Source of the DNA: an uncultured Spirochaetales bacterium
GTDB lineage: Bacteria > Spirochaetota > Spirochaetia > Sphaerochaetales > Sphaerochaetaceae
Length of the DNA: 37,024 nucleotides
Direction: 5' to 3'
Assembly (NCBI GenBank): GCA_949293335.1
Contig: CASFDA010000024.1
Location: 1 to 37,024, forward strand
Shown here: positions 724 to 31,342 of the stretch, in pieces
Layout: each line of letters begins with the position of its first letter
How positions within the stretch are numbered: the stretch's first letter is position 1
Translations under genes and position numbers: made by a program
The notes under the pieces: generated by a model
What the model saw: the letters and a program-made list of their open reading frames with translations, nothing else
Databases searched by the model: none
What the model was told of the DNA's origin: nothing

Positions 724-1488
724 ATGGCAGAGCTTGATTACTCGGAAGGTGCACTTCCTCTATATACGCAAGTCGCCTATAGGCTCTGCCGTCGGATTCA
801 GAACGGTGAATTCACGACAGGTAGCTTTCTGCCATCACAAAGCGAGCTTTCCTCCTATTATGGGGTTTCAAGGATAACCATAATCAACGCAATCAGATTT
901 CTCACCGAGAGAGGCATCCTCAGATCCCAGCAGGGGAAAGGCTCGCTTGTGTTGAAAAGTACCATTGGCATGGACTCATATGTAGAGGAGGGATTTTCCA
1001 TGCAGTTCAGGAAGCATGGATTCTCGACAACCACTTCTGTCCTTTCCTCCTCGATTGTAAAGGCGAACTACATTGTTTCTGAAAATCTCTCAGTTAGGGA
1101 AGGGGATGATGTGGTTGAGCTGAGAAGACTCAGATATATAGAGGGCGTTCCCGCCTGTTATGAGCAGGGCTACTACAGGATCATTCCTGGAATCGCAGAT
1201 GTTGCCCTGAAGCTCAAAGACAACGAATCACTTTATTCATCTATAAGAAAGAATGGAATAGAACTGGACAGGGCAGAGGAGAGGATGGAGGCCTCAGAGG
1301 CATGCGAAAATGTCGCTGAAAATCTCAATATCCCTCAGAATTCCCCGATCCTTCTAGTTCATAGGCGTACTTTCTCTCGTTTTGTACAGGGCCCGCTTGA
1401 GTATTGCATGAACTCATACAATACAGCCGTTTACGGCAGCTACGGCATTGTTACGATCAACTTGCGGCCAGAAAGAATGGCCGATTAG
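724..1488 (+). CDS. GntR-family (HutC/UTRA) transcriptional regulator
   Basis: 254 residues. The N-terminal 75 residues form a GntR winged helix: PLYTQVAYRLCRRI, then FLPSQSELSSYYGVSR, then LTERGILRSQQGKG. The remainder is a UTRA ligand-binding domain, typical of the HutC subfamily, with the usual VVELRRLRYIEGVPACYE strand. UTRA domains bind small molecules, often the substrate or an intermediate of the neighbouring pathway. The stop codon at 1486-1488 overlaps the AGGAGG ribosome binding site of the binding-protein gene, so it is almost certainly co-transcribed and likely controls the whole 1499-11049 set. Palindromes at 675-713 are candidate operators. The ligand is unknown. Confidence 0.9.
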   Translation: MAELDYSEGALPLYTQVAYRLCRRIQNGEFTTGSFLPSQSELSSYYGVSRITIINAIRFLTERGILRSQQGKGSLVLKSTIGMDSYVEEGFSMQFRKHGFSTTTSVLSSSIVKANYIVSENLSVREGDDVVELRRLRYIEGVPACYEQGYYRIIPGIADVALKLKDNESLYSSIRKNGIELDRAEERMEASEACENVAENLNIPQNSPILLVHRRTFSRFVQGPLEYCMNSYNTAVYGSYGIVTINLRPERMAD

Positions 1489-1498
1489 GAGGAATAGA

Positions 1499-2617
1499 AT
1501 GAAGAGATTTTGGCTTGTGTTGCTGGCAGTGCTGCTCGCATTTTCGCCACTATTCGCAGGCGGTTCTTCCGAGCAGTCGGAAGAGGCAAAGGCTCAGAGG
1601 ATCCAAGAGGCTGATGCAGGGCTTGATGAAAAGACCCTTGCTTTCCTTGAGGGCAAAGACTTTTCTGGCCAGACCCTTGTCGTAGGTGTCTGGGGTGGTG
1701 TCATTGAAGATATTCTCCGCGAATATGTGATTCCTCCTCTTGAGGCCAGAGGTGCGCGTGTTGAGCTTCTTCTCGGCGCGACCAGCGACAGGTTCGCAAA
1801 GATCTACCTCGAGAAGGACAATCCTACGATGGACATCTGCTACCTGAACCTTTATGAGTGCATGATGTCTATGGAGGATGGAATAACAGAGCCACCATCA
1901 GATAAGATTCCTGCTTTCGACGATCTCTACCCATGGGCACAGATCGGAGGTTACGGTGTTTCTGCTATGGGAGTTGGAATCGCATACAATCCTGACTATT
2001 TCGATGAGGCTCCGGATTGGGAAGATCTCTGGAATCCAGAATTCAAAGGTAAGATCGCAATTCCGACATACCCAGGTTCAGAGAGTGAGGCCCTCCTTGC
2101 AATCGCTGCTCGTATCGGTGGTTCTGATGAACACGATATCGATACTGCCCTCAATGAGCTGAAAAAGCTCTGCCCGGTACCTCTTGTGTACACAAATCTT
2201 GACGAGCTCTTCCTGATGATGGACAAGGGTGATGTGGTGGCTGCTCCTGTAATTTCCGGTTATGCATGGACATATGTTGACAGAGGCATGAATGTCGCAT
2301 TCTCCTGGCCACAGGATTTCGGATGTGTGAAGGCTATGGACGTCATGACAATTGTTGCAAACAACAAGCATCCTGAACTCAGCGAGGCATGGGCTCAGCT
2401 TGCACTTTGTCCGCGCACACAGCAGGCATATGCGGAACGGATCTATTTCGGACCAACCAACAGCACAGTCGTTCTTGAAGGTGAGGTTGCGGAAAGAAAC
2501 GTCTACGGAGAGAGGGCAAGCACGCTTCTTGACCTTGACTGGATGTATCTTGTTGACCACAGGTCGGAATGGACTCAGAGATACAATCAGGAAATCCTGG
2601 AATACGACGGGAATTAA
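1499..2617 (+). CDS. PotD-like ABC transporter substrate-binding protein
   Basis: 372 residues from the ATG at 1499, chosen because AGGAGG ends six bases upstream; a longer frame from 1448 lacks such a site. A signal peptide (MKRFWLVLLAVLLAFSPLFA) is followed by GGSSEQ, so there is no lipobox cysteine and signal peptidase I cleavage after LFA is likely. The mature protein resembles the spermidine/putrescine-type binding proteins (SBP_bac family): LVVGVWGGVIEDILREY near the start, GVGIAYNPDYFDEAPDWEDLW and NPEFKGKIAIPTYPGS in the middle. It probably delivers substrate to the permeases at 4701-6358 and ATPase at 7264. The substrate need not be a polyamine; neighbours suggest an N-heterocycle or nucleoside. 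Confidence 0.85.
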   Translation: MKRFWLVLLAVLLAFSPLFAGGSSEQSEEAKAQRIQEADAGLDEKTLAFLEGKDFSGQTLVVGVWGGVIEDILREYVIPPLEARGARVELLLGATSDRFAKIYLEKDNPTMDICYLNLYECMMSMEDGITEPPSDKIPAFDDLYPWAQIGGYGVSAMGVGIAYNPDYFDEAPDWEDLWNPEFKGKIAIPTYPGSESEALLAIAARIGGSDEHDIDTALNELKKLCPVPLVYTNLDELFLMMDKGDVVAAPVISGYAWTYVDRGMNVAFSWPQDFGCVKAMDVMTIVANNKHPELSEAWAQLALCPRTQQAYAERIYFGPTNSTVVLEGEVAERNVYGERASTLLDLDWMYLVDHRSEWTQRYNQEILEYDGN

Positions 2618-2618
2618 T

Positions 2619-3365
2619 ATGATAACCCTTTGGGCAGAGAAAGCTACAACAGAACTCAAAGGTGTGAAGAATGTGATCCTTCCGATAGGCTCTACGGAGC
2701 AGCATGGCCCCCATATGCCTGTCGGAACGGACACTTATCTCACCGATTGGGCTATGTCTTCCCTCGTTGGAGAGGATGTGGGTGAGGACTTTTATATCCT
2801 TCCGACAATCCCTTATGGGAAGAGTATAGAGCATTTATCATTCCCTGGTACGATAACTCTCGGCATGAATACCCTCACGATGATCATAGAGGATATTGCT
2901 TCATCACTTTCTTCAGGTGGTGTGTCTCGTCTGGTGATCATCAGTGGGCATGGCGGGAATGCAGCTCTGATCGATGCCATCACATACGACATCAGGAAAA
3001 AGTACCAGATGGAGTGTTACGGGATCAACATCGGCTCGGTATACCCAGAGAAGGAAATTCCAAAGTGTGCTTTTCCATTCAGCATGCATGCAGGGTTTGC
3101 TGAGACATCGCTGATGAAAGCCCTCCATGGAGAGAAGTTTGCACATCTTCTTGATAAAACACCAAAGAAGATCAGTGAGGAGAGCAGGGGATTCGAGCTT
3201 CTCTCCACACTCAGCCACACATCATATGGCTGGGCTACAGAGGACGTATCAGCAGAAGGCTATATCGGAGATCCTTCCGATTCGAACAAGAAAGATGGCG
3301 AGAGGATACACTTGGCTGTCAAAGAGCAGATTCTTTCCGTCTTGAGAACTATAGTCGGAAAATGA
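2619..3365 (+). CDS. Creatininase-family amidohydrolase
   Basis: 248 residues from ATG 2619, two bases after the binding-protein stop; a longer frame from 2352 lies inside that gene and is rejected. The family's metal-site motif is clear: PIGSTEQHGPHMPVGTD with E27, H29 and D38, then ISGHGGN with H111 and N114, and HAGFAETS with E162. The usual HAGE is HAGF here, while the glutamate before TS is kept. The family includes creatininase, the formamide hydrolase ArfB of archaeal flavin synthesis and mycofactocin MftE, all hydrolysing amide or peptide-like bonds with two metals. Context suggests ring-opening or deformylation of an N-heterocycle. Exact substrate unknown. Confidence 0.85.
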   Translation: MITLWAEKATTELKGVKNVILPIGSTEQHGPHMPVGTDTYLTDWAMSSLVGEDVGEDFYILPTIPYGKSIEHLSFPGTITLGMNTLTMIIEDIASSLSSGGVSRLVIISGHGGNAALIDAITYDIRKKYQMECYGINIGSVYPEKEIPKCAFPFSMHAGFAETSLMKALHGEKFAHLLDKTPKKISEESRGFELLSTLSHTSYGWATEDVSAEGYIGDPSDSNKKDGERIHLAVKEQILSVLRTIVGK

Positions 3366-3375
3366 GGAGAATAGA

Positions 3376-4647
3376 ATGCAGAACTACTTCGAGAAACCTA
3401 ACAATGGCGATATCGTAATCAAGAATATCGCGACCATTGTCAGCGGTGACTTCCATAAGGGGATCATCGAGGGTGCGGACACCATCGTATGCAGAAAGGG
3501 CAAGATTGCTCAGATCGGAAAGGAGAGTGAAGTCGACTTTTCGGATATTGAGCTTGTAGTCGACGCCAATGGCCAGGTTGCAATCCCAGGCCTCATTGAC
3601 GGACATCTGCATAATACACTGGATGACTATGCGCCTCAGCGTGGAGCTGTCGGATGCTATACAGATGCACTTCTCTATGGTACTACGACAATGATCAGCG
3701 AGGGTGAGCAGGGCCCTGGATACCCGAGATTCTATAACGATCCGATCGGAGTCAAGGCAACTGCCATAATGGCAGCCCGTGTGTTCCAGAAGTACAGGCC
3801 GGGCGGAGCTCTGAAGATGCATGGCGGTGCTGTCGTTCTCGTAGATGGCCTTACCGAAGAAGATTTCAAGGAAATGAGTGAGGCGGGAGTCTGGCTCATC
3901 GCTGAGATCGGAGGCGGCGGACTATCTGCACCAGAGAAGGTAATTCCGATGGTCACATGGGCACGAAAATACGGCTTCTTCGTCTCCTGTCATCTTGCTC
4001 CTCCTTCTATCCCTGGCTCATCCTGGGTCACAAGCGATGACATCCTCAAGATCAAGCCAGATAAGATCGCACATTTCAATGGAGGTTCGACCGGTGTCTC
4101 CTATGACCATATCGACAGGCTCATAAAGGAAAGCGATGCTGGACTTGAACTTGTTGTAAATGGCAACTTCGTCAATTTCAACAAGATCCTCAGGCAGCTT
4201 GCAGAGAGAGATGAGCTTGACAGAGTTACATTTGGAAGCGATGCCCCGACAGGACAGTCTGCCCTTCAGGCTGCCATCAATCTGGCGATAGTGAAGGCAT
4301 CCTGCCTCAATGGAATTCCTGCACATCAGGCTATAGCTATGGGAACTGGAAACACAGCAGATCTCTATGGCCTCAATACAGGAAAGATCGAGGTCGGAAG
4401 GGAAGCTGACATCTGCATCATCGACAATCCGCCGTCATCTGTAGGAACCGATGCGCTGAAGGCTATCGAGTGCGGAGATCCGTTTGGAGCTTCACTCACG
4501 ATCGTCGATGGAGAGATCGCAGGATTCCGCGGTCATGACAGCCGCCCGACATCCCGCTACTGCCTCATCAACGGAAAGGAGGCGAGGTTCGAGACGATCA
4601 CCGAACACCTCTTCTTCCCGATGGCACCTGCAAAATACAAGTATTGA
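3376..4647 (+). CDS. Enamidase-like metal-dependent amidohydrolase
   Basis: 423 residues. An amidohydrolase TIM barrel flanked by a composite beta-sandwich. The metal motif is GLIDGHLHN (H77, H79), followed by a lysine-containing LKMHGGAVV, then SCHLAPPSIPGSSW, KIAHFNGG and FGSDAPTG. The blocks GGAVVLVDGLTEEDF, SEAGVWLIAEIG and MVTWARKYGFFV closely follow the pattern I know from enamidase of nicotinate-fermenting Eubacterium barkeri, which opens a cyclic enamide. A GGAGAATAGAATG-type site precedes the start. It sits directly between the creatininase-family gene and the permeases. Likely role: hydrolysing a cyclic amide bond in a heterocycle. Substrate not deducible from sequence alone. Confidence 0.82.
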   Translation: MQNYFEKPNNGDIVIKNIATIVSGDFHKGIIEGADTIVCRKGKIAQIGKESEVDFSDIELVVDANGQVAIPGLIDGHLHNTLDDYAPQRGAVGCYTDALLYGTTTMISEGEQGPGYPRFYNDPIGVKATAIMAARVFQKYRPGGALKMHGGAVVLVDGLTEEDFKEMSEAGVWLIAEIGGGGLSAPEKVIPMVTWARKYGFFVSCHLAPPSIPGSSWVTSDDILKIKPDKIAHFNGGSTGVSYDHIDRLIKESDAGLELVVNGNFVNFNKILRQLAERDELDRVTFGSDAPTGQSALQAAINLAIVKASCLNGIPAHQAIAMGTGNTADLYGLNTGKIEVGREADICIIDNPPSSVGTDALKAIECGDPFGASLTIVDGEIAGFRGHDSRPTSRYCLINGKEARFETITEHLFFPMAPAKYKY

Positions 4648-4700: not shown

Positions 4701-5555
4701 ATGAAGTCCCGCTATGCTTTATTGTTGATGCTACCTGCGCTTTTTATCCTGGCGTTCGTATTCATCATCCCGCTTTTCTTCCTGATAGCGAAAAGTTTCC
4801 AGCACTTTGTCCCAGGAACCCTTTTCAGCCCACCTGGGTTCACTGTCGAGAACTATGTGGAACTGATCAGTGATCCGTATTACTGGAGTGTTTATATCAG
4901 AACTCTGCGGATCTCGATAATATCGACGCTGATCATACTGGTCGTAAGCTATCCGCTTTCAATATTCCTTGCAAAGAGGAGTGACAAAGTAAGAGGGTTT
5001 TTCCTCACACTGGTAATCCTTCCGATGATCGGAGGTGCGATGATTCAGACGATGGGATGGTTCGCGACACTGATGCGTTACGGATTGTTCAATTCAGTCC
5101 TGCTCGAACTTGGAATAATTGAAAGATCCATAAACTTCCTTGGATCCGAACTAGGTGTGATCATCGGCCTAGTGCAGGCCTTCCTGCCAATGATGGTCTA
5201 CCCTCTGACATCGAGCCTTCTGCAGATCGATAAGGACGTGATCGATGCGTCGAAAACCCTTGGCGCCGGGAGATGGACGATCTTCTTCCGTTTCACACTG
5301 CCTCTTACGATTCCAGGAGTTGTTGCCGGTAGCGTACTCGTTTTCATGGCGTGCCTTACCAGTTTCGTAACTCCGTCGTCCCTCGGACAGGGAAAGATAC
5401 AGGTCTTCGGAACATATGCATACCAGCAGGCAATGCAGGTCATGAACTGGCCTCACTCGAGTGCCTTCTCGATCTTCTTTATCCTCCTCATCGGGATTGC
5501 CACATATCTTGTCGGCGTTGCCATGAAGAGACTTAATAGGAGGAGTGGCTCATGA
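4701..5555 (+). CDS. PotB-like ABC transporter permease
   Basis: 284 residues from ATG 4701, with GGAGAAGAG immediately upstream; the longer frame from 4644 covers the hairpin and is rejected. About six membrane helices: the first is LLLMLPALFILAFVFIIPLFF. The EAA loop for the ATPase contact is DASKTLGAGRWTIFFRFTLP at about residue 190-210. This is the inner-membrane subunit of a spermidine/putrescine-type importer. Its last codon overlaps the next start (ATGA), so the two permeases are translationally coupled. Confidence 0.88.
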   Translation: MKSRYALLLMLPALFILAFVFIIPLFFLIAKSFQHFVPGTLFSPPGFTVENYVELISDPYYWSVYIRTLRISIISTLIILVVSYPLSIFLAKRSDKVRGFFLTLVILPMIGGAMIQTMGWFATLMRYGLFNSVLLELGIIERSINFLGSELGVIIGLVQAFLPMMVYPLTSSLLQIDKDVIDASKTLGAGRWTIFFRFTLPLTIPGVVAGSVLVFMACLTSFVTPSSLGQGKIQVFGTYAYQQAMQVMNWPHSSAFSIFFILLIGIATYLVGVAMKRLNRRSGS

Positions 5556-6358
5556 AAGAAAAGAAGTTCTGGGGAGCATTGAACACTACAGTTGCGCTTC
5601 TTGTGCTCCTTTTCATGCTTATTCCCATCATTGTGATCTTCATCAATGCATTCAATTCAAGCAGATTCTTCTCGTTTCCTCCCGAGGGCTTTACCCTCGA
5701 GTGGTTCGAACGCTTTCTGACTAACAGGGAATACAAGACTGCGATTTTAGTTAGCCTGAAGCTGGCGACCATATCTGTGATCATCGCCCTTCTTGTCGGA
5801 ATCCCGGCATCCTATGCGCTTTACAGATGGCAAAGTCCACTCTCAAAAGCACTCTCATCGCTGTTCCTTTCCCCTCTGATGCTTCCGGGGATAATATGGG
5901 CTATTGGATTGATACAGTACTATGCAGTACTCAATCGCATCGTTCCGATCTCTGGCACTACGCTGTCTCTTATCCTTGCGCACATTATCCTCATACTTCC
6001 TTATGTGATAAGACTGGTCCTCTCGAGTCTTTCATATCTGGATTTTGACACTGTGAATGCATCGCGTACTCTTGGCGCATCTCCGCTGCGTTCATTTGTC
6101 ACGATTGTCATTCCTGCAATAAAGCCAGGGATAATAATCAGTGCGATATTCGGCTTCATGGTCTCATTCAATGATGTCACTATCAGCTCTTTCATCGCAG
6201 GGGTAAGCAACCTCACATATCCTGTGAGGATGTTCGTCGAGCTGAGGACAGAAGGTCTGGATCCCCTTGCTGTCGCAGTCAGCGCTGTGATTATGTTCGT
6301 CACTATCATAGTGGCGCTTGTTGCAGAAAAATTCTGGGCTTGGTCCAAATATCTATGA
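5552..6358 (+). CDS. PotC-like ABC transporter permease
   Basis: 268 residues. First helix TVALLVLLFMLIPIIVIFINAF, then five more hydrophobic segments. The EAA loop NASRTLGASPLRSFVTIVIP is present. It pairs with the 4701-5555 permease as the second membrane subunit; the ATGA overlap at 5552-5555 supports a 1:1 complex. Context with the PotD-like and PotA-like genes makes a complete importer. Confidence 0.88.
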   Translation: MKEKKFWGALNTTVALLVLLFMLIPIIVIFINAFNSSRFFSFPPEGFTLEWFERFLTNREYKTAILVSLKLATISVIIALLVGIPASYALYRWQSPLSKALSSLFLSPLMLPGIIWAIGLIQYYAVLNRIVPISGTTLSLILAHIILILPYVIRLVLSSLSYLDFDTVNASRTLGASPLRSFVTIVIPAIKPGIIISAIFGFMVSFNDVTISSFIAGVSNLTYPVRMFVELRTEGLDPLAVAVSAVIMFVTIIVALVAEKFWAWSKYL

Positions 6359-6370
6359 TTGGAGAAAAAT

Positions 6371-7261
6371 ATGAGAGATTGCTTTAAAGAATTACTGGAA
6401 AACTACCGACACCTTGATTACCTTCCCAAGTTCCTTACAGCAGATGGAAGGCCTTCTCTTACCGGCATAGACGGCAAGAAGATCGCCCGTTATGTGATCA
6501 TGACTGTACGCGATCCGCTTTGCGGATACAACGAGGACTCAGCAAAGGAAATTGCAGGATATCTGGACGAGAGCGAAGAGGTTGCCAGAACTGGTATGTT
6601 CGTAACATACACAGGAAAATACAAAGGGGTTGAACTCTCTATAGTCAGCGGGGGAAGCGGTGCTCCGGAAGCGGAACTTGTTCTCAATGAGTTCATGATC
6701 TTCTCTGAGGCGGATACTTTCATCCGTGTCGGCGGCTCTGGAGGATGGAACGAGAACGTACATCCGGGCGATGTTGTCATCTCTTCGGGCGCTGTCAGGG
6801 ACGAGGGAATGACAGCTTCCTATGTTGTCAGGCAATACCCTGCATTTGCCAATTACGAGGTCCTTCTTTCCCTTATTGAGGCTGCGACTGAGAACGGACA
6901 CAAGTTCCATGTCGGCATAACCCGAAGCGGGGATAGTGAATACTGCGGATGGGGAAAGCCTTCCTATGGCGGTTATATTCAGAAGGAACAGTTAGAGATA
7001 ATCGATTACTACCACAGGGCAGGGGTTCTGAATACAGACAGGGAAACTTCTGCAATATTTACTCTCACGACCCTTTTCGGTCTTCGCGGAGGTTCTATCT
7101 GCTCCATTGGGGATAATGTGGTCAACAAAGAGGGTTTCAAGGCTGGTGGCGGACATGAGAGTGCAATAGCTATTGCCCTTGAGGGAATAAGAAAACTGAA
7201 CAGCAAGGATAAAGAGAAGGAAGAGAGGGGACTCAAGTACTGGGTTCCGAATGCGAGGTGA
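6371..7261 (+). CDS. Uridine-phosphorylase-like (PNP/UDP family 1) protein
   Basis: 296 residues from ATG 6371, chosen because GGAG at 6361 is well placed; an upstream TTG at 6359 is the alternative. The fold signatures of nucleoside phosphorylases are present: VSGGSGAPEAELVLNE, FIRVGGSGGWNENVHPGDVV, and GVLNTDRETSAIFTL. In E. coli uridine phosphorylase the last block is NYEMESATLL; here Met is replaced by Arg (R224) and the first Glu by Asp (D223), while E225 is kept. The phosphate-site GTTGAIQ is GGSGGWN. These changes sit in the ribose and phosphate pocket, so the substrate may be unusual. Predicted role: cleavage of an N-glycosidic bond of a nucleoside using phosphate. Confidence 0.82.
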   Translation: MRDCFKELLENYRHLDYLPKFLTADGRPSLTGIDGKKIARYVIMTVRDPLCGYNEDSAKEIAGYLDESEEVARTGMFVTYTGKYKGVELSIVSGGSGAPEAELVLNEFMIFSEADTFIRVGGSGGWNENVHPGDVVISSGAVRDEGMTASYVVRQYPAFANYEVLLSLIEAATENGHKFHVGITRSGDSEYCGWGKPSYGGYIQKEQLEIIDYYHRAGVLNTDRETSAIFTLTTLFGLRGGSICSIGDNVVNKEGFKAGGGHESAIAIALEGIRKLNSKDKEKEERGLKYWVPNAR

Positions 7262-7263
7262 AA

Positions 7264-8337
7264 ATGCAGAATTTTCTTGAAATCGGGAATGTATCGAAAA
7301 GCTTCGGACAGACTGAGGTCCTCAGGGGGCTTGATCTTTCTGTGAAGGAAAAGGAGATACTGGTACTTCTTGGCCCTTCGGGGTGCGGGAAGACAACGTT
7401 GCTCCGGATCATCGCGGGTCTCATAGAGCCAGATGGGGGTTCTCTGACGCTTGAAGGAAAGGATCTCTTGTCTGTTCCTGTCGAGAAGAGGGAGATCGGG
7501 TTTGTATTCCAGAAATACGCGCTCTTTCCTCATATGAATGTTGAAGACAACATCACGTTCGGCCTCAAGCTCAGGAAGCTTGACAAGAATGAGATCAGAG
7601 AGAGGCTCGACTCTGTCTTGGATCTGGTGGAACTGAAAGGATACGAGAAGAGGATGATCAATGAGCTTTCGGGAGGACAGCAGCAGCGTGTGGCACTTGC
7701 GCGTGCGATAATAATCAAGCCGAAGCTGATGCTTCTTGATGAGCCTCTTTCAAACCTCGACGCAAAGCTGAGGGCATCTGTTAGGGTCAATATAGTAAGG
7801 ATTTTAAAAAAGCTTGGCATCACAGCAATAATGGTCACTCATGACCAGATAGAGGCCATGACAATGGGAGACAGGGTTGTCCTGATGAACGAAGGGAAAA
7901 TCTCTCAGGATGGAAAACCGAAAGAGATATACTTCAATCCCCGAAATCTTTTTGTCGCAGAGTTCCTCGGGACTCCGAGAATCAATGTGCTGCCTCTCAA
8001 GAAAGAGGGTACATCATTCTTCCTGGGATCAGAGAGTGTGGATGGAAGTCTCCTCTCCCTGTGGACAAAAAGCGATGCGGAAGCTCTTCCTGATGGAACC
8101 TATTCGCTTGGAGTAAGACCTGAGAACATAGTCAGGGACAGTTCCGGGTACAAGGCGACTGTCAACCTCCTTGAAGTCTCTGGGGCAGATACGAATGTCC
8201 ACCTCACATTCCTCGGATCTGATTATGTGATGCGGACTAACTCTGAAGGACAAGAACTGATGCCGGGCGATGAGATAGAAGTGTCGTTCCTGCCATCTTC
8301 CTGTTTCCTGTTTGACAAGAGCGGTGAGAGGATATGA
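7264..8337 (+). CDS. PotA-like ABC transporter ATPase
   Basis: 357 residues from ATG 7264 (GAGG upstream); GTG 7258 is possible. Walker A GPSGCGKTT, Q-loop FVFQKYALFPHMNV, signature LSGGQQQRVALARA, Walker B LMLLDEPLSNLD and switch histidine VTHDQ are all intact. The C-terminal ~110 residues form a TOBE-type domain with SLGVRPENIV. This architecture is standard for polyamine, iron and maltose importers. It powers the 4701/5552 permease pair. The stop overlaps the kinase start (ATGA at 8334-8337). Confidence 0.92.
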   Translation: MQNFLEIGNVSKSFGQTEVLRGLDLSVKEKEILVLLGPSGCGKTTLLRIIAGLIEPDGGSLTLEGKDLLSVPVEKREIGFVFQKYALFPHMNVEDNITFGLKLRKLDKNEIRERLDSVLDLVELKGYEKRMINELSGGQQQRVALARAIIIKPKLMLLDEPLSNLDAKLRASVRVNIVRILKKLGITAIMVTHDQIEAMTMGDRVVLMNEGKISQDGKPKEIYFNPRNLFVAEFLGTPRINVLPLKKEGTSFFLGSESVDGSLLSLWTKSDAEALPDGTYSLGVRPENIVRDSSGYKATVNLLEVSGADTNVHLTFLGSDYVMRTNSEGQELMPGDEIEVSFLPSSCFLFDKSGERI

Positions 8338-9242
8338 GCGGAAAGAGAATACTCGTAGTAGGGGATGCGGACATTGATTTCTATATAAACGTTGACCACA
8401 TCCCGACGCATGACGAGGGGATCCTCGCAACCTCAAGTTTCTCTCTTCCTGGAGGTAAGGCCGCTAATTCCGCATACGCGCTTTCCTCACTTGGAAGCGA
8501 TACAGCGCTCTTTGCTGTAATCGGGAGGGACAAGAGGGGAGAGGATGCTCTCGAGAGTCTGAAGAAGATAGGGACGGACCTTTCTCTTGTCAGCTACAGT
8601 GACAATGAGACGACGCTCTGCATCATGCTCCTCGATAGCACAGGAGAAAAGGCTATCGTAGTCCTTCCTTCTCCCGATATCTATCCAGGGAAGGAGTTTT
8701 CCCACGTTCTCGATGGGAAGGGAAAGGATTTTGACCATGTGCATGTCATCGCCATGAATCCGGAGAAGATCTCATGGGTATGCACCTGGGCAAAGGAGAA
8801 TGGCCTGACTCTGTCGATGGATATAGATTCTGCCAATGGAGGTATGAAGCGTTTTGAAAACATCCTCAAAAAAGCCGATATAGTATTCATGAACAGGCAG
8901 GGTCTCCATTCTCTCACTGACGATGACAGCAATGATGGCAAAAAGGGCCTTGAAGAGCTCTATGGGCAATTTGGCAACGTTATCATCTCCACTTTAGGGA
9001 AAGATGGGTCTTCCATGATTTCTGGAGAAGGTTTTTCCCATGTGGATGCTATTTTGGTGAAAGCCAAGGACACCTCAGGCTGCGGAGACGCATTCGCATC
9101 AGGTTTTCTCCATTCTTACCTGAATTTGGTGTATCCTTTAACTGAAGCTCTGAAATTCGCATCTCGCTCTGCAGCTGTAGCAGCCGTTTGCTATGGCGGA
9201 CAGGGCGGATCCTGGAGCTCTTTAGGAAAAGGAGGACAATGA
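8334..9242 (+). CDS. PfkB-family carbohydrate/nucleoside kinase
   Basis: 302 residues. The N-terminal substrate motif LPGGKAANSAYALSSLG and the C-terminal anion-hole motif DTSGCGDAFASGF mark a ribokinase-like PfkB kinase; the catalytic Asp is in GCGD. Family members phosphorylate ribose, sugars, adenosine and other nucleosides, and sequence alone does not separate these. In this operon it could phosphorylate ribose released by the phosphorylase or the imported nucleoside itself. Coupled to both neighbours by overlapping stop/start codons. Confidence 0.88.
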   Translation: MSGKRILVVGDADIDFYINVDHIPTHDEGILATSSFSLPGGKAANSAYALSSLGSDTALFAVIGRDKRGEDALESLKKIGTDLSLVSYSDNETTLCIMLLDSTGEKAIVVLPSPDIYPGKEFSHVLDGKGKDFDHVHVIAMNPEKISWVCTWAKENGLTLSMDIDSANGGMKRFENILKKADIVFMNRQGLHSLTDDDSNDGKKGLEELYGQFGNVIISTLGKDGSSMISGEGFSHVDAILVKAKDTSGCGDAFASGFLHSYLNLVYPLTEALKFASRSAAVAAVCYGGQGGSWSSLGKGGQ

Positions 9243-10594
9243 TGTCCAGCATTCTTCTCAAGAATATTTACACCTTGATGACATCGACAGATGAGAAGGA
9301 CCAAAAGAATGTGGATGTGCTTATCAAGGACAATCTGATCGAGAAGATCGGAAAGAATCTCCCTGATAAAGCTGACCGTACCATCGACTGCTCATCGTGT
9401 GTCGTTTTGCCGGGGTTCGTGAACACTCATCATCATTTCTACCAGACACTTACAAGGAACCTGCCTGAAGTACAGAACTCAAAGCTCTTCATCTGGCTCA
9501 CTTATCTTTATGAGATCTGGAAGAAGATCGATCCTGAGGCCGTGAAGTACTCATCGCTGCTTGCTATGGCAGAACTGATGAAGACCGGATGTACAGCGAC
9601 AACGGATCATCACTATCTGTATCCGAAGGGATTTGATGGGGATATCATGAGCATCCAGTTCTCTGCCGCAGATACACTCGGCATGCGCTTTTCTCCTACA
9701 AGAGGTTCGATGAGCCTCTCGAGGAAAGATGGAGGACTTCCCCCTGATTCTGTCGTCCAGAGTGAGGATGAGATCCTCTCTGACAGTGAGAGGGTTATAA
9801 AACTGTTCCATGACCCCGATCCGATGGCGATGCACAAGGTCGTACTCGCCCCTTGTTCTCCATTCAGCGTCACAAAGAGCCTGATGAGCGAGAGCGCAAG
9901 GTTGGCAAGGAAATATTCGGTAAGGCTTCATACACATCTCTGCGAGACAATTGATGAAGAAGAGACCTGCATGAAGATGTATGGGATACGTCCCGTGGAG
10001 CTCATGCAGGAGTGCTCCCTGATCGGGCCTGATGTGTTCTATGCGCATGGAATACATTTCAATGACGAGGAACTGAAGGTTCTGAAGGAGACGGGAAGCC
10101 AGGTCGCGCACTGTCCTTCAAGCAATATGAGGCTCGGAAGCGGAATCTGCAGAGTACGTGAGATGCTGGATATGGGAATTACAGTCGGAATCGGAGTTGA
10201 CGGCTCTGCGTCCAATGACAGCTCTGACATGCTCGGTGAGATGAGGATGGCCCTCCTTTTGCAGAGAGTAAAGAACGGTTCAGACAGTCTTTCTGCCCGT
10301 GACGTGATCAAGATGGCGACTGTAAACGGTGCTTCCATGCTTGGATATGGAAAGATAGGGAAGATCAAGGAAGGCTGGGGTGCTGATATCGCGATATTCG
10401 ATGTCTCCGGCATTTCCTATGCAGGTGCTCAGTCAGATCCTGTGGCTGCACTGCTCTTTACCGGGATTTCCCACGAGAGCAAGTACACGATCATAAATGG
10501 AAAGGTGACTGTAGATAATGGAAAGCTGGTCAACTTTGACGAAGAGGAGCTTTCCCGAAAGGCGAATGAGATCGCGCTGAGGTTACTCAAATGA
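9242..10594 (+). CDS. ATZ/TRZ-type amidohydrolase, 8-oxoguanine-deaminase-like
   Basis: 450 residues. ATGs at 9239 and 9242 are adjacent; 9242 gives better spacing from AGGAGG (9230-9235). Metal ligands: LPGFVNTHHHF (H63, H65), VRLHTHLCET, VFYAHGIHF and VGIGVDGSASND. The long block FYQTLTRNLPEVQNSKLF and the GVDGSASNDSSDMLGEMRMA block match the 8-oxoguanine deaminase/AtzB-like group rather than cytosine or adenosine deaminases. Reaction expected: hydrolytic deamination of an oxidised or other substituted purine or related ring. A paralogue lies at 26343-27737 beside a nucleoside importer. Overlaps the kinase stop and the NADAR start. Confidence 0.85.
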   Translation: MSSILLKNIYTLMTSTDEKDQKNVDVLIKDNLIEKIGKNLPDKADRTIDCSSCVVLPGFVNTHHHFYQTLTRNLPEVQNSKLFIWLTYLYEIWKKIDPEAVKYSSLLAMAELMKTGCTATTDHHYLYPKGFDGDIMSIQFSAADTLGMRFSPTRGSMSLSRKDGGLPPDSVVQSEDEILSDSERVIKLFHDPDPMAMHKVVLAPCSPFSVTKSLMSESARLARKYSVRLHTHLCETIDEEETCMKMYGIRPVELMQECSLIGPDVFYAHGIHFNDEELKVLKETGSQVAHCPSSNMRLGSGICRVREMLDMGITVGIGVDGSASNDSSDMLGEMRMALLLQRVKNGSDSLSARDVIKMATVNGASMLGYGKIGKIKEGWGADIAIFDVSGISYAGAQSDPVAALLFTGISHESKYTIINGKVTVDNGKLVNFDEEELSRKANEIALRLLK

Positions 10595-11049
10595 GCGAAA
10601 AGATATTTTTCTATGAACCTTGGGATGAGAATGGTTATCTGTGCAACCTTTCCCCGTATACTGTCTTTTTCGATGGCCTTCTCTGGCCTACAAGCGAACA
10701 CTGCTATCAGGCTCAGAAACATAGAGATCCTGCGTATAGGGAGAAGGTGCGCAGTGCTTCCACCTGCCAGGAGGCCATTGCTCTCGGCCGCGATGAGAAT
10801 AGCCCGTCATATCGTCATGATGACTGGATGGATGTGCGCGTTTCGCTGATGTACGACATCGTATATGCGAAGTTCTCCCAGCATGAAGATATAAGGAAGA
10901 TGCTTCTCGATACTGGGGACGCTGAAATAGCAGAGCATACTCAGAACGACCATTTCTGGGGGGATGGCATGGACGGAAGCGGAGAGAATCATCTTGGAAA
11001 AGTGCTGATGGAGGTGCGTAGCGCCTTACGTGCCAGGGAAGAAGCATAA
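10591..11049 (+). CDS. NADAR/YbiA-family N-glycosidase
   Basis: 152 residues, the usual length for a single NADAR domain. Signatures: an N-terminal YLCNLSPYTVFFDGLLWPTS, then EHCYQAQKH, and the C-terminal HFWGDGMDGSGENHLGKVLM. The known members YbiA and RibX-associated domains hydrolyse the N-glycosidic bond of early riboflavin intermediates (ring-opened guanine nucleotides); other NADAR proteins remove ADP-ribose from guanine. It overlaps the deaminase gene by ATGA, so it belongs to this operon and is made with the other purine-type enzymes. Likely role: releasing ribose phosphate from a ring-opened or modified purine nucleotide, or clearing a toxic intermediate. The role is inferred. Confidence 0.85.
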   Translation: MSEKIFFYEPWDENGYLCNLSPYTVFFDGLLWPTSEHCYQAQKHRDPAYREKVRSASTCQEAIALGRDENSPSYRHDDWMDVRVSLMYDIVYAKFSQHEDIRKMLLDTGDAEIAEHTQNDHFWGDGMDGSGENHLGKVLMEVRSALRAREEA

Positions 11050-11085
11050 TCACATGGCATTTTGCCATTACTTACAGTACAATAT

Positions 11086-11116
11086 CCTCTAGAGACAATT
11101 TCTCTGGAGGATTTTT
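11086..11116 (+). promoter_or_regulatory. Hairpin that buries the ribosome binding site and ends in a T-run
   Basis: CCTCTAGAGA (11086-11095) pairs with TCTCTGGAGG (11101-11110) across a 5-base loop, with one G-T pair. The 3' arm contains the GGAGG of the next gene, and ATTTTT follows directly before the ATG. It could be the terminator of the upstream operon, a translation switch for the nucleotidyltransferase, or both. A second small perfect hairpin (ATGGCA/TGCCAT) is at 11054-11068. Confidence 0.5.
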
Positions 11117-19559: not shown

Positions 19560-20327
19560 ATGAATAGTTCAGCAGTAGATGGCTGTTTAAGTTACATTAA
19601 GTTCGGATACGATTTTGATGGAATAGATTTTTCCGTCTCCGCCGAGGATGCGCTCAAGAAGATACTTGAAGAGGAAGATGATGCTTCCTCTGTGATTTCA
19701 AGATTCATCGAGGAGAAGAGACTCGATGTTCCATATGAGGCCACGTCCTCCGAACTAGGTTTTTATCCAGGAACAAGATGCCTTGTGAATTACTTCAATA
19801 TCAAGGATAAAGGGATACTCAAGCAGATTGAGACCTGGATTTCCTCCATGCGCATCGCGGAACTCTTTGTCAGGCCTAAAGAACTTCCTTTCTCTTTTGA
19901 TTATCTGAAGGCAATACATCAGCATATTTTTGGTGATGTGTATCCTTCTGCAGGGATGATAAGGGACAAGAACCTTGAGAAGCACAGTGAGTACTGCAGG
20001 GCTGAGTATATCGAGGAGCAGGCTCAGGATATCTTCTCGAAGCTTGCCCAGCTGAATTATCTCAAGGGGATTGATGACTTCGATGATTATATAAATGAGC
20101 TTGCCTACTTCATGGGTGAGATGGAGGCTCTCCATCCGTTCAGGGATGGCAATGGGAGGACAACGAGGTTTTTCTTCACCAGACTTTCCAGAAAAGCTGG
20201 ATATGATATCATCTGGAGTTCTGTCGACGTGGACAGGTATCTGGAAGCGAACATCGCATCGATCGACGGGGATTACCAGCCTCTTTTCAGCGTTCTTGAA
20301 GAGAGCGTGATAAGGCGCATAGATTGA
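19560..20327 (+). CDS. Fic-domain protein with N-terminal antitoxin-like segment
   Basis: 255 residues. The Fic motif is intact: HPFRDGNGRTTR at 192-203, with catalytic H192. The core begins near residue 67 (FYPGTRCLVNYFNIKD). Fic enzymes attach AMP or other phosphate-containing groups to target proteins. The first ~55 residues resemble VbhA-type antitoxins (pattern FDGIDFSVSAEDALKKI, then a helix ending in SRFIEEKRL). The inhibitory motif of that family is [ST]xxxE[GN]; the nearest match here is GYDFDG (16-21), with the key Glu replaced by Asp and no Ser/Thr, so inhibition may be weak or absent. The start must be ATG 19560 or ATT 19557 because a stop precedes them. Confidence 0.85.
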   Translation: MNSSAVDGCLSYIKFGYDFDGIDFSVSAEDALKKILEEEDDASSVISRFIEEKRLDVPYEATSSELGFYPGTRCLVNYFNIKDKGILKQIETWISSMRIAELFVRPKELPFSFDYLKAIHQHIFGDVYPSAGMIRDKNLEKHSEYCRAEYIEEQAQDIFSKLAQLNYLKGIDDFDDYINELAYFMGEMEALHPFRDGNGRTTRFFFTRLSRKAGYDIIWSSVDVDRYLEANIASIDGDYQPLFSVLEESVIRRID

Positions 20328-24028: not shown

Positions 24029-25657
24029 TTAAACTCTTATACCACTGTTAAGCACTTTCTTCCCTGAAAGCCTTATCCTTTCTATTTCCTCTTCATGCAT
24101 CCTGTTTATGGATGTGAAACTTTTAGCACATCTCATCCCATCAATTATCAACTCTCCCGTATCATCAAATGAGGCATTGTAAAGGAGGAATGAGGAATAC
24201 AGATCCCTCTGCACTGCTGTCCCATCGGAAAGGGAGAACAGCCTCTGTGAGAGTTTCCTCTTCACATACTCTCCACTAGTGTGGTCATACTGGGAAGCCC
24301 TGTAGCCATATGGAACTTCAATGTACCTTCCTCCTGTCAGGGTGAACTTCATTTCAGCCTGGCTCTGGAAGTATCCGGGACAGCGGTTCCTTATCGACTT
24401 GCCGAATCTCTTCTTCCGATTCATCTTGCCCGTATTCTCATTGATTGTCATCTCTTTCGTCTTTGTCATAAGCCTCTTCGCATTCCTCGGCTCAGTGATG
24501 AAGACATCCCCAAGGTTCCTCATGTGGTTCACATCCTCCCTGATCGCCAGATGGCAGTTTATGGAGTTCTTCCGTCTAAGCTTCTTCAGCCTCTGTTTGT
24601 CCTCGAGGTAGTTCTTTGAGCATTTCCACTTCTTTGGACCATTCTTTACCGTTCCATCCTCATTGTAGTTGTCTGGATTCATGGCTCTCCTTGAACGGTC
24701 GAGCTTCCGTAGCAGGATCCTCTCCTTCCTCTCGCTTCCGGTGATCGCTTCACCTCTCTCGGCAAGATTCCTGAGACCGCATTCCTTGTCGGAGGTATAG
24801 GCGATCGTCTGGGTGCCGATGTCACAGCCGACAACGCCTGTTCCATACTTATGGCGGGGAGAGCCATCCATTGAGAACTTGGGCTTTGCCTTCCCTTCAA
24901 TAGTCAGATGTATGAAGACCCTCAGTCTTCCCCTTATCTCCTCGCACTTCAGAGAGGCATAGCATGGACGATACGTATCCAATATCTTATCCTTCTCATG
25001 AAAGGTTCTCACTGCTTCAGCATCTATCTCATCGCCGTGATTCAGATAATGGAGTACGGCATTTACCTCATCTTCTCCGAACCTGTCGCTTATTATCGGG
25101 GAGAAGGAGATGCTACTGCACGAGAGGACCAAGCGGCCATCAATGTTCTTGATTGTGATGCTCCTCTCAATCTGCTTGGCCCTGAGAATTGGAAGCTCTC
25201 CTCTCTTTGAGAAGCGGAGCATCTTTCCATCAGCGTAGAGGACCTTCTCGACACCCTTCCAGATATCTTCTGCTCGGGTGAGAGCGAATACGCTGGAAAG
25301 GGAATACTTCTTCCCGATCGGAATCATCGTTCTCCTGCAACAATCCCAGCTGACATCATACTCATCCTGCATCGCATTCATCTGTGCCGAAAGATGTGAC
25401 TTCAATGCCTTGTCATTATTCCTACCCGCTTTGCCATAGAGGACTTTCAACTTCCGGTACCGCTTTGTTCTCAGAAGCTGTTCCTTATTCCTCCTCATTA
25501 TGGCAATGAGCTCATTGCTGGCAAGACGGAGGCGGTTGGAGATGTTGAAGATATGCCTCTTGTCGTCTTCTCACATGTCGGCCTCGATCATGAGGACATG
25601 CCTTTCACTTTCTTTTCTAAATTCCTTGAGCAGTTTCTTTGCCTCTTCACTTTCCAT
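24029..25657 (-). pseudogene. tnpB: TnpB-family RNA-guided nuclease with an early TGA stop
   Basis: The natural start is ATG 25657 with AGGAGG just upstream (MESEEAKKLLKEFRKESERH), but an in-frame TGA at 25573-25571 ends it after 28 codons. The frame is then open to 24029 (542 residues if read through; 489 from an internal ATG at 25498). RuvC residues are kept: Asp in GVVGCDIGTQTI, Glu in DVFITEPRNAK and Asp in VQRDLYSSFLL (D226, E336 and D432 of the 489-residue part). The four cysteines normally between the Glu and last Asp are missing; the stretch reads ASQYDHTSGEYVKRKLSQRL. A restart at 25498 has no obvious ribosome binding site. It is probably inactive or strongly reduced. Confidence 0.75.
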
Positions 25658-26342: not shown

Positions 26343-27737
26343 ATGGAAAAACAGGTTCTGATAAAGAACGCCAAGGCAATAGTGTCGTGTGACGGTTTGG
26401 ACCGTGTCTATTTTGACTCCGATATTCTGATCGAGAAGAATGTTATCAAGAAGATCGGAAAGGCTATCGAGTGCGAGAGTAGCGAAGTTATCGATGCCAG
26501 AGGCAAGTTCATATATCCTGGACTTGTAAATACACATCACCATTTTTTCCAGACTTTCGTCAGAAATCTTGTGAGCATAGATTATCCGAACATGACTGTT
26601 CCTGAATGGCTCGACAAGATATATCGGATATTCCAGAAAGTTGATTCTGATGTGATCTTCTACTCAAGTCTCACCAGTTTCGCTGATCTTGTGAAGCATG
26701 GATGCACGACAGCCTTTGATCATCAGTACTGCTATACCAAGAGGACTGGAAAATCTCCAGTGGACAGGCAGATGGAGGCTGCTGACATGATCGGCATACG
26801 CTATCACGCGGGCCGTGGTGCGAACACTCTTCCGAGAGAACTTGGCAGTACAATTCCTGAAGATATGCTTGAAACGACAGATGAGTTCCTTTCAGATTGC
26901 GAGAGGCTTATCAAGACATATCACGATGGATCTCCATTTTCGATGCACCAGATTGTAATTTCTCCTTGCCAGCCGATGAATTCTTATAAAGAAACATTTG
27001 TTGAGTCCCTGTCCCTTGCGCGGGAGAAGAAAGTACATCTCCATACACATCTGGGAGAGGGGGAGAACGCGATAATTGAGGCAAAATACGGAAAGAGGAC
27101 ACTCGACTGGTGTGAGGAGATTGGCTTTTCGGGTCCTGATGTATGGTATGCCCATTGCTGGGAACTGAGTCGTGAGGAATTCAGGAGAATGGCAAAAGCG
27201 GGAACAGGTGTGAGCCATTGTCCTGCCCCTGCTGTTCTCGGAGGTTTCCCGATATTGAATATCAGGGAACTTCTTTCTGATGGCGTTACTGTGAGTCTCG
27301 GGGTGGATGGTTCTGCGACAAACGACAGCTCGAATCTCCTTGACGCGCTCCGTATGGCATATCTGATGCAGTGTTTCTTCAGCAAAGAGAGAGGTGGTGC
27401 CGTTTCGTCCTATGATATGCTCAAGATAGCAACAGCTGGAGGTGCGAAAACACTTGGGCGTGATGATATCGGATCGCTTGAAGTGGGCAAGGGCGCAGAC
27501 CTATTCATGATAGATGGGGAGGCGCTGGAGCTCACTGGGACAGAACATGATCCGAAGAATCTGATTGCACGTGTAGGGGTAACAGGCCCTGTTTCCCTTA
27601 CGATGATTGACGGGAAGGTCGTCTTCAGAGAGGGACAGATTACAGGAATCGATGAGCATGCGCTCAGGGAAGAGGGAGAAAAAGTATGTACAAAGGTCCT
27701 GCGCTCTGAGTCATCAGCCTTCCCAAAATACAATTGA
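26343..27737 (+). CDS. ATZ/TRZ-type amidohydrolase, 8-oxoguanine-deaminase-like (second copy)
   Basis: 464 residues; GGAGG upstream of the ATG. Metal ligands: PGLVNTHHHFFQTF (H65, H67), VHLHTHLGEGENA, VWYAHCWELS and VSLGVDGSATND. It shares the family layout with the 9242-10594 protein but differs in detail (HLGEG for HLCET, AHCWE for AHGIH), so the two may use different rings. It is the first gene of a run that continues with a BMP-type binding protein and nucleoside importer, which fits deamination of an imported purine base or nucleoside. AtzB or isocytosine-type activity remains possible. Confidence 0.85.
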   Translation: MEKQVLIKNAKAIVSCDGLDRVYFDSDILIEKNVIKKIGKAIECESSEVIDARGKFIYPGLVNTHHHFFQTFVRNLVSIDYPNMTVPEWLDKIYRIFQKVDSDVIFYSSLTSFADLVKHGCTTAFDHQYCYTKRTGKSPVDRQMEAADMIGIRYHAGRGANTLPRELGSTIPEDMLETTDEFLSDCERLIKTYHDGSPFSMHQIVISPCQPMNSYKETFVESLSLAREKKVHLHTHLGEGENAIIEAKYGKRTLDWCEEIGFSGPDVWYAHCWELSREEFRRMAKAGTGVSHCPAPAVLGGFPILNIRELLSDGVTVSLGVDGSATNDSSNLLDALRMAYLMQCFFSKERGGAVSSYDMLKIATAGGAKTLGRDDIGSLEVGKGADLFMIDGEALELTGTEHDPKNLIARVGVTGPVSLTMIDGKVVFREGQITGIDEHALREEGEKVCTKVLRSESSAFPKYN

Positions 27738-27757: not shown

Positions 27758-28753
27758 ATGAAGCGTATTTTACTTCTTGTATCTCTATTCGTTGTCTCAT
27801 TTGCGTTCCTTTTCGCAGGGGGCGCAAGCGATGCATCCGGCGATGAGATCGACTCAATGGCATTGATTCTTTCCGGACCTGCAAATGATCAGGGATGGAA
27901 CGCTGTCGCAGTTGCCGGTCTTCAGGCGACAAGTGAGAAGTTCGGACTCGAGACTACAATCATGGAGAATGTCTCGATCGCTGATTCGGAAGCCGCCTAC
28001 AGACAGCTTGCGGCCGATGGGTATGATATCATAATCGGACACGGCTATCAGTATGGAGAGCCTGCTGCCGCAGTGTCACACGAGTTTCCAGGTAAGTATT
28101 TCCTTGCCACAGAGTCAAATTCCTACTCTGAGAACGCAGCTTCATATGTAATGGCTTGTGAGCAGGGTGCATATATCATGGGACTTCTTGCCGCTGGAAT
28201 GTCTGAAAGCGGTACAATCGGGGTGATCGGAGGTTTCGAGCAACCATCGATAATCAAGGAACTCGAAGCTTTCAAGCTTGCTGCAAAGACAATAAATCCA
28301 GATATAAAGGTACTTGAGATCTATATCAATTCTTTTACTGATACGAATCTTGGATATGAGGCTGCGATGACAATGATCAATCAGGGTGCCGATGTCATCT
28401 ATCAGGTGGCAAACCAGGCGGGAAATGGTGCGATTATTGCCGCTTCCGAACATGGAGTATATGCCGAAGGTAATTCCTATGATCAGAATTCAATTGCTCC
28501 TGATTATGTTCTGTCATCGACTATCTATAACATGGATCAGGTGATGATCACTGCAGTATCCTCGATCATGGATGGAACGTTCCAGGGTGGGGTTTACAAT
28601 CTCGGAATGGACAGGAATGTAGTTGAGATCGCTCCTTACCATGCGCTTGAGGATAAGATTCCTCAGGAATTGAAGGACACTATCAGTCAGGCTATCAGCG
28701 ATATCACATCAGGTGCTCTTGAAGTCCCTGTCATATCGACTCCATCTCGCTGA
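27758..28753 (+). CDS. BMP/PnrA-family nucleoside-binding protein
   Basis: 331 residues. Signal peptide MKRILLLVSLFVVSFAFLFA then GGASDASG, no lipobox cysteine. The BMP (PF02608) pattern is clear: ALILSGPANDQGWNAVAVAGL at the ligand site, broken here around SGPANDQGWN, ADGYDIIIGHGYQYGEP, and the C-terminal GGVYNLGMDRNVVEIAPY. Members such as Treponema PnrA bind purine nucleosides. AGGAGG lies before the ATG. Periplasmic receptor of the 28813-32277 importer. Confidence 0.9.
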   Translation: MKRILLLVSLFVVSFAFLFAGGASDASGDEIDSMALILSGPANDQGWNAVAVAGLQATSEKFGLETTIMENVSIADSEAAYRQLAADGYDIIIGHGYQYGEPAAAVSHEFPGKYFLATESNSYSENAASYVMACEQGAYIMGLLAAGMSESGTIGVIGGFEQPSIIKELEAFKLAAKTINPDIKVLEIYINSFTDTNLGYEAAMTMINQGADVIYQVANQAGNGAIIAASEHGVYAEGNSYDQNSIAPDYVLSSTIYNMDQVMITAVSSIMDGTFQGGVYNLGMDRNVVEIAPYHALEDKIPQELKDTISQAISDITSGALEVPVISTPSR

Positions 28754-28762
28754 GCCATATCA

Positions 28763-28790
28763 GGCCCGGGCTTGTCCCGGGTCTTCTCTC
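28763..28790 (+). terminator. Intra-operon GC hairpin, possible attenuator
   Basis: GGCCCGGG (28763-28770) pairs with CCCGGGTC (28776-28783) across CTTGT, with one G-T pair, followed by TTCTCTCTTC. Like the hairpin at 4656 it falls between binding-protein and transporter genes, where partial termination would keep the binding protein in excess. Confidence 0.55.
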
Positions 28791-28812
28791 TTCAGAAAAG
28801 GATAACTATACG

Positions 28813-30324: not shown

Positions 30325-31342
30325 AAAGAAAATAAATGCATTATCTACTCTGATAGTCATCTTTGTCTCATTGGCCCTCTCCCTTTTCCTTATAGCGGTC
30401 TCCAGTTCAAGCTTTTCATCAGCCCTTTATGGCTTTTTCCGTGGAAGTCTCGGAAGTGCCTACTCGTTCGCAGAGGTGCTCGTAAAGGCGATTCCCCTGA
30501 TTCTCTGTGGCTTGTCGGTTGCAGTTGGAGCATACGCTGGCTTTACCAATATTGGAGCTGAGGGACAGTTCTACATGGGTGCAGTTGCAACTACTGTAGT
30601 CGGGATGTACCTCGATCTTCCAGGGCCGCTGTTGATGTTGGTTGCCTTCCTCTTCAGCTTCCTTCTGGGTGGAATCTGGGCAGCCGTCCCGGGTATTCTG
30701 AAGGCACGCTATGGGATATCTGAAGTTATCAACACGCTGATGTTCAACTACATCGCGATTGCGCTTGTCGGTATCCTTCTCCAGACATCACTTAAAGCTC
30801 CGGATGCATATTTCCCGGTATCCTCATATATGCCTGAGGACATGTGGTTCTTCAAGATCATTCAGGGAACAAGGCTTCACGCGGGACTCTTTCTGGCGAT
30901 CTTGCTGGCGGTAGTCCTGTATGTGATCATTTACCGTACCTGGCTCGGTTTTGAGATAAGGGCGGCCGGACTTAATAGCAGGGCATCTTTCTGCTCAGGA
31001 ATCAATGTATCCAAGAGCATCGTCATCTCATCCCTTCTCTCTGGAGGTTTTGCCGCCATCGCGGGGTATTCCGAAATTCTCGGCCTCCAGCACAGGCTTC
31101 TCGATGGAATGTCCCCTGGCTATGGCTACTTGGCAATTGTCGCGTCCCTCCTTGGCCGCAACAATCCATTCCTGATCATATTCTCATCGATTCTCATTGC
31201 ACTCATCCAGGTCGGCTCGCAGGGCATGCAGCGCTCTGCTGGAGTTCCTACTGCGATATCCAATATAATCCTCGGTCTGGTAGTGCTGCTTGTCCTGATC
31301 AGACCATTCATAAAGAAATTGCTTGAAAAGGTAGGTGCCTGA
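30317..31342 (+). CDS. Nucleoside ABC importer permease (COG4603 type)
   Basis: 341 residues with about eight to ten helices. Signatures: VGAYAGFTNIGAEGQFYMGA, GISEVINTLMFNYIAI and ISSLLSGGFAAIAGYSEILG. It overlaps the ATPase end by eight bases. Together with the next gene it forms a heterodimeric membrane channel of the purine nucleoside importer class (RbsC-like fold). Confidence 0.9.
   Translation: MSEKKINALSTLIVIFVSLALSLFLIAVSSSSFSSALYGFFRGSLGSAYSFAEVLVKAIPLILCGLSVAVGAYAGFTNIGAEGQFYMGAVATTVVGMYLDLPGPLLMLVAFLFSFLLGGIWAAVPGILKARYGISEVINTLMFNYIAIALVGILLQTSLKAPDAYFPVSSYMPEDMWFFKIIQGTRLHAGLFLAILLAVVLYVIIYRTWLGFEIRAAGLNSRASFCSGINVSKSIVISSLLSGGFAAIAGYSEILGLQHRLLDGMSPGYGYLAIVASLLGRNNPFLIIFSSILIALIQVGSQGMQRSAGVPTAISNIILGLVVLLVLIRPFIKKLLEKVGA

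Follow-up and report, generated by a model that had tools for sequence, protein, structure and literature searches.

The window analysed here is contig C24 (GCA_949293335.1, CASFDA010000024.1; 37,024 nucleotides) of an uncultured Spirochaetales bacterium, and the system in question is an operon in which a creatininase-family gene (2619-3365) adjoins an enamidase-like gene (3376-4647). With a third hydrolase gene of the operon, which encodes an 8-oxoguanine-deaminase-type amidohydrolase, the pair belongs to a real, transferable gene module that is conserved across phyla and stands apart from the enamidase loci of nicotinate fermentation. The operon would serve to break down a purine of the guanine type, probably in an oxidised or other modified form; the chances of this reading appear about even. 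Gene context and family assignment carry the purine link, and we infer the substrate, the order of the steps and the ring opened by each enzyme.

The genome (1.92 Mb, 99% complete) has uncultured Spirochaetes as near relatives. Its operon comprises 11 genes on the plus strand between 724 and 11049, with intergenic gaps of -4 to 56 bases as computed; correction of the PotB start to 4701 makes 53 bases the largest gap. The creatininase-family gene is preceded by a gap of 1 base and the enamidase-like gene by a gap of 10 bases. The ATG of the PotD-like gene was placed at 1499 from the sequence. The features follow one another in this order:

724-1488, plus strand: GntR/UTRA-type regulator, first gene of the operon (PF07702 86.8 bits, PF00392 54.2 bits)
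1499-2617, plus strand: PotD-like solute-binding protein of the importer (PF13343/PF13416; nearest solved structure 4edp, then spermidine/putrescine binders)
2619-3365, plus strand: creatininase-family metal hydrolase (PF02633 187 bits; conserved residues; fold)
3376-4647, plus strand: enamidase-like amidohydrolase (2VUN 310 bits; six residues conserved in the subfamily)
4701-5555, plus strand: PotB-like permease (PF00528; PotB model 176 bits, under the cut-off of 348)
5552-6358, plus strand: PotC-like permease (PF00528; PotC model 136 bits, under the cut-off of 326)
6359-7261, plus strand: nucleoside phosphorylase of the NP-I (uridine-phosphorylase-like) family (PF01048 97.3 bits; 3qpb 110 bits; under every NCBIfam cut-off shown)
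7264-8337, plus strand: PotA-like ABC ATPase (PF00005, PF08402)
8334-9242, plus strand: PfkB-family kinase, ribose-1-phosphate-kinase/ribokinase-like (PF00294 137 bits; best NCBIfam model NF053626 123 bits, under the cut-off of 330)
9242-10594, plus strand: 8-oxoguanine-deaminase-type amidohydrolase (NF006055 589.6 bits, cut-off 532; 3hpa 431 bits; motifs)
10591-11049, plus strand: NADAR / riboflavin-intermediate N-glycosidase-type protein, last gene (PF08719 128.6 bits; TIGR02464 117.9, cut-off 73.7)
11084-11112, plus strand: terminator-like hairpin 3' of the last gene (12-pair stem, T-rich tail; pattern match only)

The original prediction had placed the two adjacent hydrolase genes between the gene for a transporter's binding protein and those for its permeases, and profile matches of the PotD-like product upstream and the PotB/PotC-like products downstream bear this out. 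The arrangement exceeds chance, since two other Spirochaete genomes retain it and further phyla have it with different importers.

A genome scan with the enamidase homologue yielded ten loci at 48-98% identity and, after a sharp break, seventy at 38-42%. Sequence comparison assigns the homologue to a distinct subfamily (47-98% identical), for which 11 loci outside the window (L032-L041 and L178) were compared with the 70 canonical loci. The best solved relative is by far enamidase 2VUN (E 2.3e-91, 310 bits, residues 13-395), presumably from Eubacterium barkeri, and Foldseek placed 2VUN first, at 43% identity, for the structure model of the homologue. The models are modest (mean pLDDT 74, and 73 for the creatininase homologue) and were used for fold only. 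The homologue resembles 2VUN in fold, length and the metal-site residues taken from alignments but shares only about 40% identity with it, and its gene partners are wholly different. H77, H79, E177, H206, H233 and D289 are kept in all 11 subfamily members, and in the 70 canonical enamidases the same positions hold except for one K at 177. These six residues fit an amidohydrolase metal site, whose ligands we take them to be. At 58 positions or indels each group is fixed to 90% or above, but in a different state; examples are R88Q, A109E and H112Q, an F-Y insert at 119-120 and the C-terminal stretch 408-415. R88, A109 and H112 are each present in 70/70 canonical enamidases, in contrast to the subfamily, which has Q (10) or I (1) at position 88, E (11) at 109 and Q (10) or H (1) at 112.

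That the other genes of nicotinate fermentation are absent, as originally predicted, holds for the sole pathway marker searched: 6-hydroxynicotinate reductase was found in none of 10 module genomes, comprising that of the window and nine others, with the genome of L035 and G907 outside this search. The positive control succeeded, with the reductase found in Desulfatitalea beside a canonical enamidase and in the query's own record. As far as tested by this marker, the enamidase homologue is not an enzyme of the nicotinate pathway. Nicotinate fermentation was rejected on the missing reductase and on the differing canonical-fixed residues, such as R at 88; the homology of the 3376-4647 product to enamidase speaks for it, and it is hardly conceivable. 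The predicted action of the pair on something other than nicotinate is thus supported, and another cyclic amide we infer to be the likely substrate. Without the partner genes, homology to enamidase does not justify a nicotinate annotation.

The gene partners within about 10 kb separate the two groups. The subfamily loci, which span Spirochaetes, Firmicutes, Chloroflexi and one archaeon, contain a deaminase gene in 9 of 11 cases, a creatininase gene in 8 and an ABC importer in 9 (6 BMP, 3 PotD-like); 6-hydroxynicotinate reductase and Amino_synth occur in 0/11. Canonical loci, in contrast, carry the reductase in 62/70 and Amino_synth in 64/70 cases, and creatininase, deaminase and BMP genes in 0/70. 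All three hydrolases are encoded in seven subfamily loci (L032, L034, L035, L037, L038, L039 and L178). L033 has no local deaminase gene, with a 67% identical homologue elsewhere, and L036 lies on a 5.2-kb contig, the creatininase gene of its genome being located beside a BMP permease gene on another contig (L168). A further locus, L179 (45% identity, on a 4.5-kb contig that shows no partner gene), being truncated and of uncertain subfamily, is not counted among the 11; its inclusion would give 9/12 for the deaminase and 8/12 for the creatininase. A test of the association is provided by G907, which was picked by the enamidase alone yet holds the whole set. A search of 396 genomes with only the enamidase query gave nine matches, of which only those of G502 (L040) and G907 (L178) exceeded 50% identity, and in G907 the BMP importer, creatininase, deaminase and enamidase-homologue genes lie on one strand.

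The canonical loci are not independent, since 52 of the 70 are from Bradyrhizobium. Fisher tests, which assume independence of the loci, carry no weight in the comparison. Considered by group, the reductase is present in every locus of 9 of the 13 named groups, in 47/52 Bradyrhizobium loci and in none of three one-locus groups. Six plasmid loci, two of which supplied the two reference proteins, have the reductase in 2/6, Amino_synth in 5/6 and creatininase and deaminase in 0/6 cases; seven further loci have the reductase in one, Amino_synth in five, creatininase and deaminase in none and a BMP gene in two. The canonical enamidase genes of L026, L030, L031 and L186 directly adjoin their steady partner, the Amino_synth ('amino acid synthesis family') gene.

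The enamidase homologue is rare, being found in 3/139 genomes of the family and in 3/392 of the phylum sample. In the Clostridia-class sample 2/391 genomes matched: the centre genome itself, that of L039, with the sole subfamily member, and a second with a canonical enamidase (43%) accompanied by Amino_synth and the reductase. The window protein is 80% identical to one encoded on a Peptococcaceae contig. This patchy distribution combined with high identity across phyla suggests horizontal transfer. The literature search, as far as the sources were available, turned up no account of an enamidase-creatininase-deaminase cluster.

Comparison of the window with L032 (3945-5216; genome G048) revealed 98% protein identity of the enamidase homologues, with four-fold sites saturated at 34% identity. 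The other values are 53% for the creatininase, 82% for the deaminase, 83% for the phosphorylase and 59% for the PfkB kinase and, outside the operon, 62% for SsnA, 64% for YgfK and 90% for YgeY. Within the operon, constraint is thus strongest, by a wide margin, on the enamidase homologue and weakest on the creatininase. The only explanation offered for this contrast is that the function of the former may be sharply fixed and that of the latter looser.

The creatininase homologue matches PF02633 with 187 bits (cut-off 31.3), and its model retrieved only creatininase entries at E <= 0.001. With 2VUN ranking first for its neighbour, the two hydrolases have the unrelated folds that were predicted. 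The conserved E/H/D/HGGN/E positions of the PF02633 superfamily are present, and E27, H29, D38, H111-N114 and E162 are invariant in eight module creatininases. The protein shares fold and family profile with creatininase, MftE, IolN and ArfB but remains under the NCBIfam cut-off of each named function: 118.2 of 172 bits for MftE, 89.5 of 235 for creatininase (TIGR04448), 57.7 of 245 for IolN and 24.6 of 180 for ArfB. The creatininase score, together with the nucleoside genes of the operon and the purine-type importers of its relatives, makes highly improbable a catabolism of creatinine or hydantoin, in which creatinine would be deaminated, methylhydantoin opened and a carbamoyl amino acid hydrolysed, even though one protein is of the creatininase family, the other of a hydantoinase-like superfamily, and creatinine would also offer a 2-amino-4-oxo motif. 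The window genome has a second creatininase-family gene (L025, 4837-5631, contig C19; 28% identity); by eye, its neighbours resemble TRAP-transporter and peptidase genes.

The third hydrolase passes the cut-off of the 8-oxoguanine deaminase model NF006055 (589.6 versus 532 bits). It contains the motifs APCSPFSV and RGSMS as well as THHHxYQ, DHHY and PCS, and [AG]PCSPFSV and RGSM are present in all nine module deaminases aligned (that of L178 is not in the alignment). Active-site roles of a Gln, a Tyr and a Cys in 8-oxoguanine deaminase are said to have been described in 2010. The best solved relative, 3hpa (431 bits), has APCSPFSV and RGAM and is, we assume, an 8-oxoguanine deaminase from the Sargasso Sea. 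The N2,N2-dimethylguanine hydrolases of the AtzB cluster possess C-Q-x-x-N plus N with a spacing of 48 residues (PMC13054789). At these positions, and with the same spacing, the nine aligned module deaminases have C-S-x-x-S and M, which may separate the two activities. A methylated guanine, such as N7- or N2-methylguanine from RNA turnover, imported as a cationic nucleoside by the PotD-like system, would fit the presence of those hydrolases in the cluster and the textbook knowledge that PotD-like importers often carry cations; the lack of the C-Q-N-N set in the module deaminases, with another homologue in the window possessing it, renders this improbable. That homologue (26343-27737; 394 bits, under the 8-oxoguanine cut-off of 532) has exactly C-Q-x-x-N plus N with the 48-residue spacing, and a BMP-type nucleoside/base ABC importer (27758-32277) adjoins it. 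In relation to 8-oxoguanine deaminase and the AtzB-NdmH group as a whole, the module deaminase is alike in its score and CSPFS motif but differs in the absence of the C-Q-N-N residues of NdmH and in being clustered with two hydrolases of ring-opening type.

Enzymes related to the deaminase form urate from 8-oxoguanine, xanthine from guanine and uracil from isocytosine (PMC6186785). The action on guanine would favor a variant of the clostridial xanthinase pathway in which the deaminase forms xanthine and the enamidase homologue is the xanthine amidohydrolase, and that pathway likewise opens purines hydrolytically (PMC3519856, PMC12507026). Enzymes of the AtzB/8-oxoguanine cluster, however, are poor guanine deaminases (PMC13054789), no decarboxylase was seen in the clusters, and formiminotransferase (PF02971) was not found in the window genome and occurs in only 3/10 module genomes, so that the formiminoglycine route was rejected and the variant is unlikely.

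The operon includes four genes beyond the scope of the original prediction (6359-7261, 8334-9242, 9242-10594 and 10591-11049). The nucleoside phosphorylase, PfkB kinase, NADAR protein and 8-oxoguanine-type deaminase, and in relatives base-type BMP importers, indicate a purine-type base rather than the ureides, hydantoins, dihydropyrimidines and creatinine that had been listed as candidate substrates. In the Spirochaete clusters the phosphorylase gene has a permease gene on one side and an ATPase gene on the other, and the genes for PfkB and NADAR come after these. Kinase and NADAR protein are fused in one frame in L033 (14964-16364), which suggests that kinase and then N-glycosidase act on one nucleoside. 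NADAR/YbiA proteins cleave ADP-ribose from guanine and N-glycosides of the riboflavin pathway (PMC11125620). Also in favor of a purine link, a 67% homologue of the operon deaminase in G122 (L167, contig C105) is encoded between molybdenum hydroxylase genes and near an adenine deaminase gene. BMP importers occur in six loci, and the binding proteins of two were compared with solved structures; the nearest are 7x0r, 3s99, 4p98 and AtzT (6pi5), ahead of PnrA-type proteins. The ligand of 3s99 is presumably adenine. AtzT binds guanine with a KD of about 110 nM (PMC6834077), and its aromatic sandwich seems to be kept in the module proteins (Y to W, W to F). The BMP frame of L178 (7286-9277; 663 residues) seemingly contains two tandem copies of the binding protein, which may be an assembly error.

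In the proposed route, the PotABCD-like importer would take in a nucleoside, and in relatives the BMP importer of base-binding kind would take in a base. Either the nucleoside phosphorylase would free the base, or PfkB would phosphorylate the nucleoside and the N-glycosidase activity of NADAR then cleave it; the deaminase would next remove the 2-amino group to yield a urate- or xanthine-type base. Hydrolysis of a lactam/enamide C-N bond, most probably one of the six-membered ring, would fall to the enamidase homologue, and that of the five-membered imidazolone-like ring then left, or of a ureido/formamido group, to the creatininase homologue. The two rings were assigned, each with low confidence, from known chemistry: enamidase acts by hydrolysing a cyclic enamide, the substrate of creatininase, creatinine, is an imidazolone, and relatives of creatininase cleave formamides (ArfB) and peptides (MftE). 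To our knowledge, only a few oxygen-free ways of opening the purine ring are known. It is a tentative and rather doubtful proposal that the module opens an 8-oxopurine anaerobically and by hydrolysis alone, from 8-oxoguanine by way of urate to open-ring products, by means of the enamidase and creatininase homologues, and that it spread horizontally in anaerobic members of at least three phyla and was joined in Spirochaetes to a kinase plus NADAR protein, or a phosphorylase, that frees the base from oxidised nucleosides. If true, a compact, transferable set of three hydrolases with its own importer would constitute a new anaerobic purine ring opening or an undescribed use of oxidised or modified bases, and NADAR proteins, besides acting as antitoxins, might also serve in metabolism.

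Several observations weigh against the assignment of the module to a guanine-type purine. L040 and L041 have no creatininase gene nearby, and neither the archaeal locus L041 nor its genome has a deaminase (E <= 1e-60). In G122 the deaminase gene is located away from the module. The PDB labels 3hpa merely 'amidohydrolase'. Phosphorylase, this PfkB kinase and NADAR are confined to three clusters, the PotD-type ones of Spirochaetes. Their creatininases form one supported group (100/99), but the tree does not resolve whether this group joins the five creatininases from the remaining clusters, and the two cluster types may have recruited their creatininases separately. Most of the polar contacts that AtzT makes with guanine have no counterpart in the module BMP proteins; given the retained aromatic sandwich, a ligand that is guanine-like but not identical is possible. 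Finally, the genome of the window has genes for SsnA, YgfK and YgeY as well, so that urate could take the reductive route, which would leave the two hydrolases unexplained.

The reductive urate pathway (XdhD-YgfK-SsnA-HyuA-YgeW-YgeY-YgeX) is likewise an anaerobic purine breakdown using amidohydrolases (PMC12507026), but the module has no reductase and employs other hydrolase families, and in this genome the pathway is encoded away from the module, YgfK on contig C12. The enamidase and creatininase homologues might be parts of it, in place of HyuA or SsnA, which would agree with YgfK scores over the cut-off in 9/10 module genomes. However, YgfK is present in 123/139 genomes of the family and the enamidase homologue in only three, and SsnA is itself encoded in the window genome; such a replacement is very unlikely. 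The co-occurrence with YgfK was rejected as a signal for the same background, since the presence of a pathway that is near-universal in the family explains nothing by itself.

Terminator-like sites in the region number 14, compared with 9.1 (sd 3.4) in shuffled sequences, and the inverted repeats 5' of the operon are short. Elsewhere in the window, a TnpB-like frame (24029-25498) and a frame with a Fic-type HPFRDGNGR motif (19560-20327) were recognized by eye only.
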